A DNA stretch of 64,000 bases. Origin: Bifidobacterium sp. (GTDB lineage: Bacteria > Actinomycetota > Actinomycetes > Actinomycetales > Bifidobacteriaceae). Position numbers and translations under genes: made by a program. Below are positions 42,940-52,971 of this stretch, piece by piece (position 1 is the first letter of the stretch; every line of letters starts with the position of its first letter). The stretch covers positions 55,589 through 119,588 of the forward strand of contig JALCCT010000006.1 in the NCBI GenBank assembly GCA_022640915.1, given 5' to 3'. The notes under the pieces are model-generated. The model did no database searches, was not told the origin of the DNA, and worked only from the letters and a program-made list of their open reading frames with translations.

Positions 42940-43190
42940 AGGCCTGTGGATAGTGTGGATAAGTGCGTTTAGCCCCACTGCGAGCTGGCGGGGAAGGTTT
43001 TGTCTTGTTGTGGATAACTTTTGGATTACCTGTGGATAACTTGCCGACTTATCCACAGCAGGGGCTTCGAATTTATGTTATCCACATTTTCGTTCAGGCT
43101 ATCCACGAGTTCTCCACCATGAAGAACCCCTCTATCCACGACTTAGTCGCAGGTTTTACGCACATTTGTGCATAACGATGTGGATAACTT
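42940..43190. other. oriC: oriC, dnaA-dnaN part: DnaA-box cluster
   Basis: Perfect TTATCCACA/TGTGGATAA boxes at 42954-42962, 43009-43017, 43031-43039, 43049-43057, 43078-43086, 43179-43187, plus degenerate CTATCCACG boxes. Confidence 0.93.
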
Positions 43191-48941: not shown

Positions 48942-49634
48942 ATGGTGGAGTACGTAGTTCATACAGATGTAGAAATAGAAGAATCGGGAGTCGCTGAGCA
49001 GATATTAGGCGATACCGCTTTTACTGTCTGCCAATTGTTTCACGTGAAACTTTCCAAGGAAGGAGTGTTACGCGGGATCATTGGGCCTCGTGATAGTGAG
49101 ATCCTTTGGGAACGGCATATCCTGAATTCTGCGGCTATTGTGCCGTTCATTCGGCAGGCTGCTGCTGGTCGAAAGCGGAAGACTGTGGCCGATGTAGGAA
49201 GCGGTGGTGGGTTCCCAGGGCTTGTCGCAGCGGCTTGTCTTCCCGATTATGAATTCACGCTTATTGAGCCTATGGAGAGACGGTGTTCATGGTTGCAAGA
49301 GTGTATTGGTCTCATGCAGCTACACAATGTTCGGATACTGCGTAATCGTGCTGAAGAAGCTATTGCCCGTATGCACACCGACCATTCATTTCATTCGTTT
49401 ACCGTTGTTACATGCCGAGCGGTTGCACCTATGAAAAGACTCAGCGCATGGACGCTGCCACTTGTCGCTTCCCAAGGGCAACTAATTGCGTTAAAAGGAC
49501 GGTCGGCCCAGGCAGAGATCGAGAAAAGCTCTGCAGCAATAGCGAAGTCAGGCGGATTCAGGCCTCGGGTCGTAGAGGCGACAGTCGGACCTGATATGGA
49601 CCCTACTCACGTAGTGATCATCGATAAACACTAG
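48942..49634 (+). CDS. rsmG: 16S rRNA (guanine527-N7)-methyltransferase RsmG (GidB)
   Basis: [68 protein letters not shown]. Confidence 0.96.
49036..49051. promoter_or_regulatory. parS: parS site inside rsmG
   Basis: TGTTTCACGTGAAACT (15/16). Confidence 0.9.
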
Positions 49635-50151
49635 TTGGAATACATGAGGTTACTTGCGTTGCCTATAAGGAAGGGCAGAGCGAACATATGTTTTGAGTAC
49701 GTTCCGCATGGGTTGCTGTGTTGGAGTTTTGGTTACCAGCATTGATGGGTTGTGGTCTGAGTTGAAACCGTGCTGTGCCGCGCGATGATGTCTGCTGGTT
49801 AGTTCTTTCAAGGCACGAACGTGATGGCGAGTGTACAAACTGGGTTCACGCCTCGGGTGCCGCAAAGATGCATTAAGGCATCCGAGCGTCAAGCAGTTGA
49901 AAATGTTAGCAGGTCCGAGGCGTGTAGCAATCTATTTAGGCAATGCAACCTATCGAACAGGCTCAGCACTTGAGCATGCTCTTTATGCTATCGTCGTTGA
50001 GACATAACGATTTGATTTATTCGTGACATTTTCTGACTCAAGTGATCGAAGCCTTCATTCCAGGTTATGAATCTGACCTCATTCAATTACAAATGGATAT
50101 GGTCAGACTGTTGCAAGTCGCAGATACGAGGATTATTTTAATGGTGCATTC

Positions 50152-50201
50152 GAATTTCGCATGGGAGATGTTTCACGTGAAACATCTCCCATGCGAAATT
50201 C
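50152..50201. repeat. parS: Perfect 50-bp palindrome centred on parS
   Basis: GAATTTCGCATGGGAGATGTTTCAC|GTGAAACATCTCCCATGCGAAATTC; contains perfect parS TGTTTCACGTGAAACA at 50169-50184. Confidence 0.97.
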
Positions 50202-50212
50202 TAATTACCAAG

Positions 50213-50361
50213 TTATCCACAGCATTTTGCTGCACTCAGACTTATACACAGAAAATGTGCATAAGTCTGAGTGCAGCAAAACCATTCTCGTATTTATGCT
50301 TGTGGTAATCGAAAGAGAAGTTATCCACATAGTTGTTCATAGTTATCCACACTTATACACA
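50213..50361. other. DnaA-box cluster upstream of parA
   Basis: TTATCCACA at 50213-50221, 50321-50329, 50343-50351; degenerate TTATACACA at 50242-50250 and 50353-50361; TGTGCATAA at 50256-50264. Confidence 0.85.
50225..50281. repeat. 57-nt inverted repeat (21-bp perfect arms)
   Basis: TTTTGCTGCACTCAGACTTAT-acacagaaaatgtgc-ATAAGTCTGAGTGCAGCAAAA. Confidence 0.97.
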
Positions 50362-50489: not shown

Positions 50490-51434
50490 ATGGAATCTGC
50501 TGCGGAAACCATTCAACGTATTTTTGGCGATGCCCAGAGTTCAGTTGGCGCCGAAATGGCAGAGACAACTACGCTGTATAAGCGTCTCCATGAGACCGTT
50601 TTTCCCAAGCCATCTTCGACGAGATATATAGCAGTCGCAAATCAAAAGGGCGGGGTTGGCAAAACATCGACGACGGTGAATATCGCTGCGGCACTTGCAC
50701 AGGCAGGTGCCCATGTCTTGCTGATTGATATGGATCCGCAGGGGAATGCTTCTACAGCACTTGGTGCACGGCATAATTCAGGCGATGCATCGGTGTACGA
50801 CGTTCTCGAAGAACGAATGGGAATAGAGAAGGTCAAGCAGCAATGCGCTGAGTTCCCTTCGCTTGACGTTGTCCCCTCCTCGATTGATCTCAGCGGCGCC
50901 GAACTCGAAGTAGCTAATTTAAATGGAAGAACGTATCTGCTCAAACAAGCTTTGGAGTCGTTCATAGCGCAATCTAGCGATCACTATGACTATATCTTCA
51001 TCGACTGTCCCCCAAGCCTCGGGTTGTTGGTCATCAACGCTATGTGCGCTGTTACTGAGATGCTTATTCCTATTCAGGCTGAGTATTATGCCCTCGAAGG
51101 TCTTGGTCAACTCATTCACACCATCGGACTTGTGCAAGAGCATTATAATTCTTCGTTGCTGGTTTCGACGATGCTGGTCACAATGTTTGATAAGCGTACA
51201 TTGCTTAGCCGAGAAGTATATGAGGAAGTGAAAAAGCATTATCCCAGTATTGTGCTGAATACGACTATTCCTAGGACTGTCAAGATTTCGGAAGCACCCA
51301 GCTTCGGACAAAGCGTGATCAGTTATGATCCCCGAGGAATGGGAGCGGTGGCATACGTGGAGGCTGCTTTAGAGATTGCACAACGGTCGCCTGTAGTCTT
51401 AGCCGCGATTGAATCAAAACAACGAGAGGACTGA
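50490..51434 (+). CDS. parA: Chromosome partitioning ATPase ParA
   Basis: IAVANQKGGVGKTSTTVNIAAALAQAGAHVLLIDMDPQGNASTALG; YIFIDCPPSLGLLVINAM. Confidence 0.98.
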   Translation: MESAAETIQRIFGDAQSSVGAEMAETTTLYKRLHETVFPKPSSTRYIAVANQKGGVGKTSTTVNIAAALAQAGAHVLLIDMDPQGNASTALGARHNSGDASVYDVLEERMGIEKVKQQCAEFPSLDVVPSSIDLSGAELEVANLNGRTYLLKQALESFIAQSSDHYDYIFIDCPPSLGLLVINAMCAVTEMLIPIQAEYYALEGLGQLIHTIGLVQEHYNSSLLVSTMLVTMFDKRTLLSREVYEEVKKHYPSIVLNTTIPRTVKISEAPSFGQSVISYDPRGMGAVAYVEAALEIAQRSPVVLAAIESKQRED

Positions 51435-51435
51435 C

Positions 51436-52971
51436 ATGGCTACGAAATCACGGTTAGGCAAGGGCCTTGGAGCATTATTCCCAGACCTTCCCGGGGAGCC
51501 GTTGTCGCTGAGCGCGAATGAAGATGAACAGAGCGTTGCACAAGCCGTTGTTGATGACTCTGCTGCTGATCATGCAGTGGCGAATTCAAATTCGTATGAG
51601 AGTGCGGAGCAGCCTGAGGTCTCAACAGATCCTGCGGCGGCAGATCGAACGCATCAAGCAGATCCGAAGGGGAAATTATCCACCAGGCACAAGCACCCAG
51701 CAAAGCACGATGTTTCACGTGAAACATCCAAAAGCACGGGAAAGAAACGTGTGAGCGTTCCCACGCTGAGTGAAATAGTGCATCCAAGCGACGTGTTCTT
51801 CGGTGCGACAGGCGATATAACAACTGCTCGAAGGCGTAATGAAAGCGTTCAGGACGATGCTATGGACGCGAGACAGGTTTCTCCGAACAGCAGAGAGACC
51901 GCGAATGTCGGTGCAGAGTTCATCTCTCACGATGATGAAATTGCTTCGTCTGAAACTGAACTTGCTCCGGTGCAGGGTGGATACCTTGCTGAGATCAAAG
52001 TTTCTGATGTTGGCCCTAATCTTCATCAACCCCGAACTGTGTTTGATGAAGACGAATTAAAAGAACTCGCCGACTCGATACAAGAGGTTGGTGTACTGCA
52101 GCCAATTGTTGTGCGAAAACGTCCACAGAACCAGCAACCTGAAAACAACACAAAGAGTTCCGGCCCTGGGGCTTCGCTAGCGCGTACAAACAGAATCGAA
52201 CACGTAAAAGCAGGGATTGCAACTCATGATGAGACGCACAATGTACCGAGCTCGGCTTCTGACGTTTCGGCATCTCCGGCTATGGACAGCGTCTATGAGC
52301 TAATTATGGGGGAGCGTCGCTGGAGGGCTTCTCAGCTCGCCGGTCTTGAAACGATCCCGGCTATAGTCAAAACTACTGCTGATGACGATATGCTCCGGGA
52401 TGCCCTCTTGGAGAATCTTCATCGCGTGAATCTGAATCCCTTGGAAGAAGCCGCAGCATTTCAGCAAATGATCAAGGAATTCGGCTTGACTCAAGCTGAG
52501 CTGTCTCGTGCGATTTCAAAGTCCCGTCCACAGATCGCCAATACCTTACGGCTGTTGAATCTTCCTGGCTCAGTACAGAAGAAAGTCGCGGCCGGAGTAC
52601 TTTCCGCTGGTCACGCCCGTGCACTGCTGTCGCTTCCTACCCAGGCAGAAATGGACAAGCTTGCAACAAGGATCATAGCTGAAGGGCTTTCCGTCCGCAG
52701 TACCGAGGAAATCGTAGCGATATCGTCTGCGTCAGCTGATCAGCCAGCGAAGGCGAAGGCACCGAAGAAGAATCCGTGGCTGGATTCGCCGATTCAGCGT
52801 AATCTGGAGAATCATCTTGATACTAAAGTGTCTATCAAGGGAAACCACAAACACGGCAGAATTGAAATCGTTTTCTCATCCCCTGAGGACATGGATCGCA
52901 TCGTTGATCTACTGATGCCAAATACTGGTGCAGCAGCTAATTCCGTGACAGCACATACTGAGTGGGTCTAA
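51436..52971 (+). CDS. parB: Chromosome partitioning protein ParB (CTPase/DNA-binding), with internal insertion
   Basis: MATKSRLGKGLGALFPD; LHQPRTVFDEDELKELADSIQEVGVLQPIVVR; ELIMGERRWRASQLAGLETIPAIV; ENLHRVNLNPLEEAAAFQQMIKEFGLTQAELSRAISKSRPQIANTLRLL. Confidence 0.97.
   Translation: MATKSRLGKGLGALFPDLPGEPLSLSANEDEQSVAQAVVDDSAADHAVANSNSYESAEQPEVSTDPAAADRTHQADPKGKLSTRHKHPAKHDVSRETSKSTGKKRVSVPTLSEIVHPSDVFFGATGDITTARRRNESVQDDAMDARQVSPNSRETANVGAEFISHDDEIASSETELAPVQGGYLAEIKVSDVGPNLHQPRTVFDEDELKELADSIQEVGVLQPIVVRKRPQNQQPENNTKSSGPGASLARTNRIEHVKAGIATHDETHNVPSSASDVSASPAMDSVYELIMGERRWRASQLAGLETIPAIVKTTADDDMLRDALLENLHRVNLNPLEEAAAFQQMIKEFGLTQAELSRAISKSRPQIANTLRLLNLPGSVQKKVAAGVLSAGHARALLSLPTQAEMDKLATRIIAEGLSVRSTEEIVAISSASADQPAKAKAPKKNPWLDSPIQRNLENHLDTKVSIKGNHKHGRIEIVFSSPEDMDRIVDLLMPNTGAAANSVTAHTEWV
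51711..51726. promoter_or_regulatory. parS: parS site inside parB
   Basis: TGTTTCACGTGAAACA, exact consensus. Confidence 0.93.

Follow-up and report, generated by a model that had tools for sequence, protein, structure and literature searches.

The window (the whole 64,000-nucleotide stretch of DNA analysed) comes from a genome which, judged by its gene order and closest named matches, belongs to the Bifidobacterium group; the assembly comprises 1.76 Mb in 22 contigs and is 78% complete, and the closest genome compared (G098, locus L171) has a ParA identity of 89%. Between rsmG and parA, ~290 bp upstream of the latter, lies a palindrome which is self-complementary without a mismatch over 50 bp and is centred on TGTTTCACGTGAAACA, a match to the parS consensus with 0 mismatches (Table 1). 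An earlier note on this DNA had described both the complete symmetry and the exact central position of a parS upstream of parA, and both descriptions hold, the sequence being as quoted and the core canonical. Allowing one mismatch pair lengthens the palindrome to 58 bp, again with no spacer between the arms (50148-50176 and 50177-50205). Outside the parS core 17 bp are symmetric on each side, for which the chance is ~0.26^17 per site, and the 50-bp palindrome far exceeds chance. Among ~375 parS-like sites of the genus only one, in L172, has a longer symmetric extension (22 extra bp).

Table 1 Features at and around the parS palindrome (positions in the window).
Feature	Position	Strand	Remarks
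rsmG (16S rRNA G527 methyltransferase), upstream gene	48942..49634	+	contains imperfect parS at 49036
Palindrome with one mismatch pair	50148..50205		29-bp arms
Perfect palindrome centred on parS	50152..50201		25-bp arms, no spacer
parS core TGTTTCACGTGAAACA	50169..50184		sole part kept at the corresponding place in relatives
Six DnaA-box-like 9-mers, cluster	50213..50361		between parS and parA
Second long inverted repeat	50225..50281		26-bp arms, 1 mismatch, 5-nt loop; encloses inverted DnaA-box pair TTATACACA...TGTGCATAA
parA (chromosomal ParA/Soj-type ATPase)	50490..51434	+
parB (ParB/Spo0J family)	51409..52971	+	above TIGR00180 cut-off; second perfect parS inside, 51711-51726

The parS palindrome and its surroundings

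The centre of the palindrome shares with chromosomal parS/ParABS systems of the Spo0J type a perfect 16-bp core, adjacent parA and parB genes, clustering of four sites near the origin and retention of the core in 11 relatives, and we regard it as a candidate ParB-bound chromosomal site. The usual parS needs 16 bp only, whereas the one in the window is embedded centrally in a perfect palindrome of 50 bp. All four parS-like sites with ≤2 mismatches in the 1.76-Mb assembly lie inside the window (47365, 49036, 50169 and 51711), where they span no more than 4.4 kb, and the palindrome itself is ~7 kb from the dnaA-dnaN origin. The imperfect site within the rsmG coding sequence (TGTTTCACGTGAAACT, 49036-49051) carries an end-pair mismatch which recurs in 31/31 one-mismatch parS sites inside rsmG across the genus; a near-parS is thus conserved within the gene.

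The origin was placed between dnaA and dnaN from the minimum of the GC skew (~41-42 kb) and from eight clustered DnaA boxes (42945-43187). We rejected the parA gap as the main replication origin, the GC-skew minimum and the denser DnaA-box cluster both being at dnaA-dnaN (42.9-43.2 kb), and the boxes upstream of parA form a separate cluster. At least two DnaA boxes are present between rsmG and parA in most genomes of the genus, with none in Gardnerella-like genomes. The second inverted repeat (57 bp) begins 20 bp downstream of the parS palindrome; L171-L173 share its inverted DnaA-box pair, including the 5-nt spacer, but among the genomes compared the arms are extended to 26 bp in the window genome only. 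Two other identities were considered for the palindrome and rejected. Against a mobile or repeated element, a 15-base probe taken from an arm had no other genome match at <2 mismatches; against a small RNA family, Rfam returned sub-threshold microRNA models only, on both strands, triggered by the long hairpins.

Both window hairpins folded together have a predicted energy of -85.5 kcal/mol as RNA (z = -16) and -56.4 kcal/mol as DNA. Individually, the predicted energies are -45.9 kcal/mol for the parS hairpin, a stem-loop strong enough for a terminator, and -39.6 kcal/mol for the DnaA-box hairpin, and no other hairpin between rsmG and parA comes near them in strength. The distance from the rsmG stop codon to the parS palindrome is 514 nt, however, whilst parS hairpins of other species do sit shortly after a stop codon, and the tail behind the palindrome is weak (TTCTAATTAC) and passes a loose scan only. 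A classical terminator directly behind rsmG was also sought and rejected, there being no strong hairpin at that position in the window genome. In the relatives L171 and L173, which lack the arms, no hairpin of equal strength lies between rsmG and parA, and a terminator in this gap is therefore not obligatory.

We scanned 444 kb of this genome for hairpins, made up of the window and a sample of 380 kb. Long near-perfect stem-loops are rare there, seven having arms of ≥20 bp. Both window hairpins, the longest near-perfect ones in the window, are among the seven and come third and fourth within the 444 kb. The long near-perfect stem-loops are without U-runs and nearly all intergenic, several lying between convergent genes, where the gene calls around the hairpins outside the window are mechanical. 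This placement between convergent genes is as expected for bidirectional terminators, as far as sequence can indicate, and terminators without a U-run have been described for actinobacteria (PMC8355165). Near-perfect stem-loops with 25- to 33-bp arms and no U-runs were seen at L225:5906-5969, L232:7384-7450, L232:12787-12840 and L237:9127-9181, several of them between convergent genes.

Conservation at the matching site and parS hairpins at gene ends

The parA region was gathered from ~110 genomes of the genus. In all 11 genomes with a matching site (L002, L003, L008, L012, L020, L111, L171, L172, L173, L206 and L208) parA is preceded at a distance of 313-330 bp by a perfect parS, and a DnaA box follows that parS after 16-42 bp, arranged as in the window. 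Flank symmetry at this parS is 2-7 of 17 positions in the relatives, which is chance level, versus 17/17 in the window, and further perfect parS sites located 351-394 bp before parA fall in the same range. An extended ParB recognition site would be expected to keep the sequence or the symmetry of its flanks together with the core, and neither is kept at this place. At the site upstream of parA, these alignments indicate, the 16-bp core alone is conserved and the arms are lineage-specific. Comparing arm symmetry across Bifidobacterium was the check that the earlier note had proposed for its reading of the arms, and the outcome, a core kept in 11 genomes between freely diverging flanks, goes against that reading. 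Relative to L171 the right arm is identical at 10/17 positions and the left arm at 8/17, this nearest relative being too distant for the direction of a template switch to be read. Similarly, L172 has a 60-bp perfect parS palindrome in its yidC-jag interval, 380 nt behind the yidC stop codon; the counterparts in L173, L171 and the window are barely symmetric or not symmetric at all.

A different picture emerged at gene ends. All parS-like sites with ≤1 mismatch were scored for consecutive symmetric bases outside the core, and an extension of ≥4 symmetric bp was found directly after the stop codon of yidC in 15/20 sites and of rsmG in 14/21 sites (~0.1 expected in either case), taking as gene ends the first 60 nt after a stop codon, a boundary chosen after seeing the data, across which the contrast is large. 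Inside rsmG just 1 of 31 sites was so extended, and in the parB region 5 of 171, somewhat above the 0.8 expected. Many of the genomes compared are related and not independent, and these species counts overstate the number of events. When the yidC-end hairpins were aligned on their centres 94% of cells were paired (33-53% in slid controls), 11 of 18 pairs had changed on both sides, and the covariation score was reached by 0/500 shuffles; the rsmG-end hairpins, which have fewer variable pairs, were 96% paired and their score was likewise reached by 0/500 shuffles. Of all the results, these parS hairpins, which recur and covary at gene ends, most deserve to be followed up.

Extended parS sites share no arm sequence outside one or two flanking positions, and the suggestion in the earlier note that the arms are an operator for a second dimeric protein finds no support in them. 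That the arms vary with compensatory changes points to pairing, and away from a conserved recognition sequence. U-rich tails directly follow many rsmG-end hairpins (for example in L208, L015, L020 and L207). A wobble test (G-U vs. A-C), meant to tell RNA pairing from DNA pairing, gave a G-U bias at rsmG ends and no clear one at yidC ends, a comparison confounded by the T-rich tails. Most species without parS after yidC have a non-parS hairpin there, at about -20 to -40 kcal/mol, although the search took one best structure per slot and these loose, multi-loop-free fold energies are not to be over-read. In L192 the hairpin after yidC retains a stem of ~20 bp, whilst its parS core is broken by the loss of one T (GTTCACGTGAAAC). 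We found no description of parS inside terminator hairpins in the literature searched, an absence which is no proof that none exists.

Origin and possible role of the arms

The gene-end hairpins of relatives, the U-poor intergenic stem-loops of this genome and the U-less terminators of actinobacteria together lead us to favour, with moderate confidence, a stem-loop seeded by parS, grown by template switching and retained at places where it is useful to end a transcript. The 16-bp parS would be the working centre, an ordinary site for ParB loading, and its position immediately before the DnaA-box cluster and parA is conserved. The small parS palindrome would have acted as the seed, its flanks having been rewritten in the window lineage into perfect reverse complements to give the 50-bp stem-loop, most plausibly through replication template switching, and the inverted DnaA-box pair nearby may have been extended likewise. 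That template switching can create inverted repeats or make existing ones perfect is documented (PMC7202029; PMC8794818), and the window palindrome shares with such quasipalindrome products the conversion of a short palindrome into a perfect inverted repeat in one lineage; unlike them, it is seeded by a centromere site.

The arms would act, if at all, through pairing and not as added ParB sequence. Their most likely role is to form, in RNA running from rsmG toward parA, a strong hairpin of the 3'-end or terminator type that is poor in U, with the second hairpin in tandem, and the stem-loop probably insulates transcription before parA. A gene-end hairpin role is probable for the window palindrome, and in relatives, by alignment and covariation, hairpins immediately behind the stop codons of yidC and rsmG have parS as their tip. 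Intrinsic terminators, including the U-less actinobacterial type (PMC8355165), have in common with the window the strong, perfect intergenic stem-loop(s), and the related parS hairpins resemble them in lying right after stop codons and, in several cases, in having a U-run. The window palindrome differs from them in its distance from the gene, its weak tail and a stem tip which is a predicted protein-binding site. Template-switch origin, termination at the window palindrome and ParB binding are all what we infer from sequence comparison.

The main rival holds that the palindrome is a mutational by-product, in which small palindromes near the origin seed template switches and the resulting long arms are functionless and will decay, which we regard as possible but not probable. 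The arms are missing at the matching place in all relatives compared, two unrelated small palindromes 20 bp apart have become near-perfect long ones in the window genome only, the L172 palindrome is likewise confined to one lineage, and the mechanism is documented in E. coli (PMC7202029). A by-product, however, leaves unexplained why extended parS sites cluster right after stop codons with compensatory changes across species, and no copying polarity could be shown.

The earlier note had also offered a cruciform-forming element, and the palindrome is able to fold, cruciform or hairpin formation being possible. As an account of the arms, a DNA cruciform extruding under supercoiling, with effects on origin topology, on SMC or ParB loading or on DnaA binding at the adjacent boxes, would suit a perfect palindrome without a spacer that neighbours DnaA boxes and another long inverted repeat near the dnaA-dnaN origin, both hairpins being predicted to be stable as DNA. 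We nonetheless consider it very unlikely, given the lack of conservation and that parS within a cruciform would differ from the duplex bound by ParB. An enlarged, high-affinity ParB nucleation site, the first proposal of the earlier note, would have the symmetric arms recognised in duplex DNA by ParB itself or by additional ParB dimers. The exact centring on parS is in its favour, as is the location ahead of parA, which might allow autoregulation by ParB; it is highly improbable, in that the flanks are at chance symmetry in the relatives which retain the core, no arm sequence is common to extended sites and ParB acts on a 16-bp element (PMC8494293). Finally, inverted chimeras are a known artefact type and this assembly is fragmented and incomplete, but a fold-back chimera of assembly or library is scarcely credible for a palindrome which stops after 25-29 bp, where homology to L171 resumes (DnaA boxes, parA leader), whose axis is the exact parS centre, and which has long counterparts around parS in many unrelated assemblies.

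Returning to the parS-seeded stem-loop, a broader version, which we put forward tentatively and would not call likely, is that parS is systematically reused in Bifidobacterium and its relatives as the tip of 3'-end hairpins, serving ParB loading in DNA and transcript ending in RNA, possibly with termination tuned by a ParB roadblock next to rpmH-rnpA-yidC, rsmG and parAB; the window palindrome would then be a lineage-specific member. If confirmed, one 16-bp word would have two jobs, as a centromere in DNA and as a hairpin tip in RNA, and the sharing of the origin region by ParB clamps and RNA polymerase would become testable. The same core with arms of 8 to 30 bp would also provide a natural series for palindrome growth by template switching and selective retention.

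Extended parS sites occur outside Bifidobacterium as well, both in G115, which belongs to a different genus of the family and has a U-run at the site, and at a few loci of Clostridia, 6 of 66 sites outside Bifidobacterium being extended against 0.3 expected. The clostridial sites suggest, at the level of sequence, that the pattern is wider than the family of Bifidobacterium. In Lachnospiraceae and other Clostridia (L086, L094, L097, L099 and L106) parS is extended by 4-9 symmetric bases.
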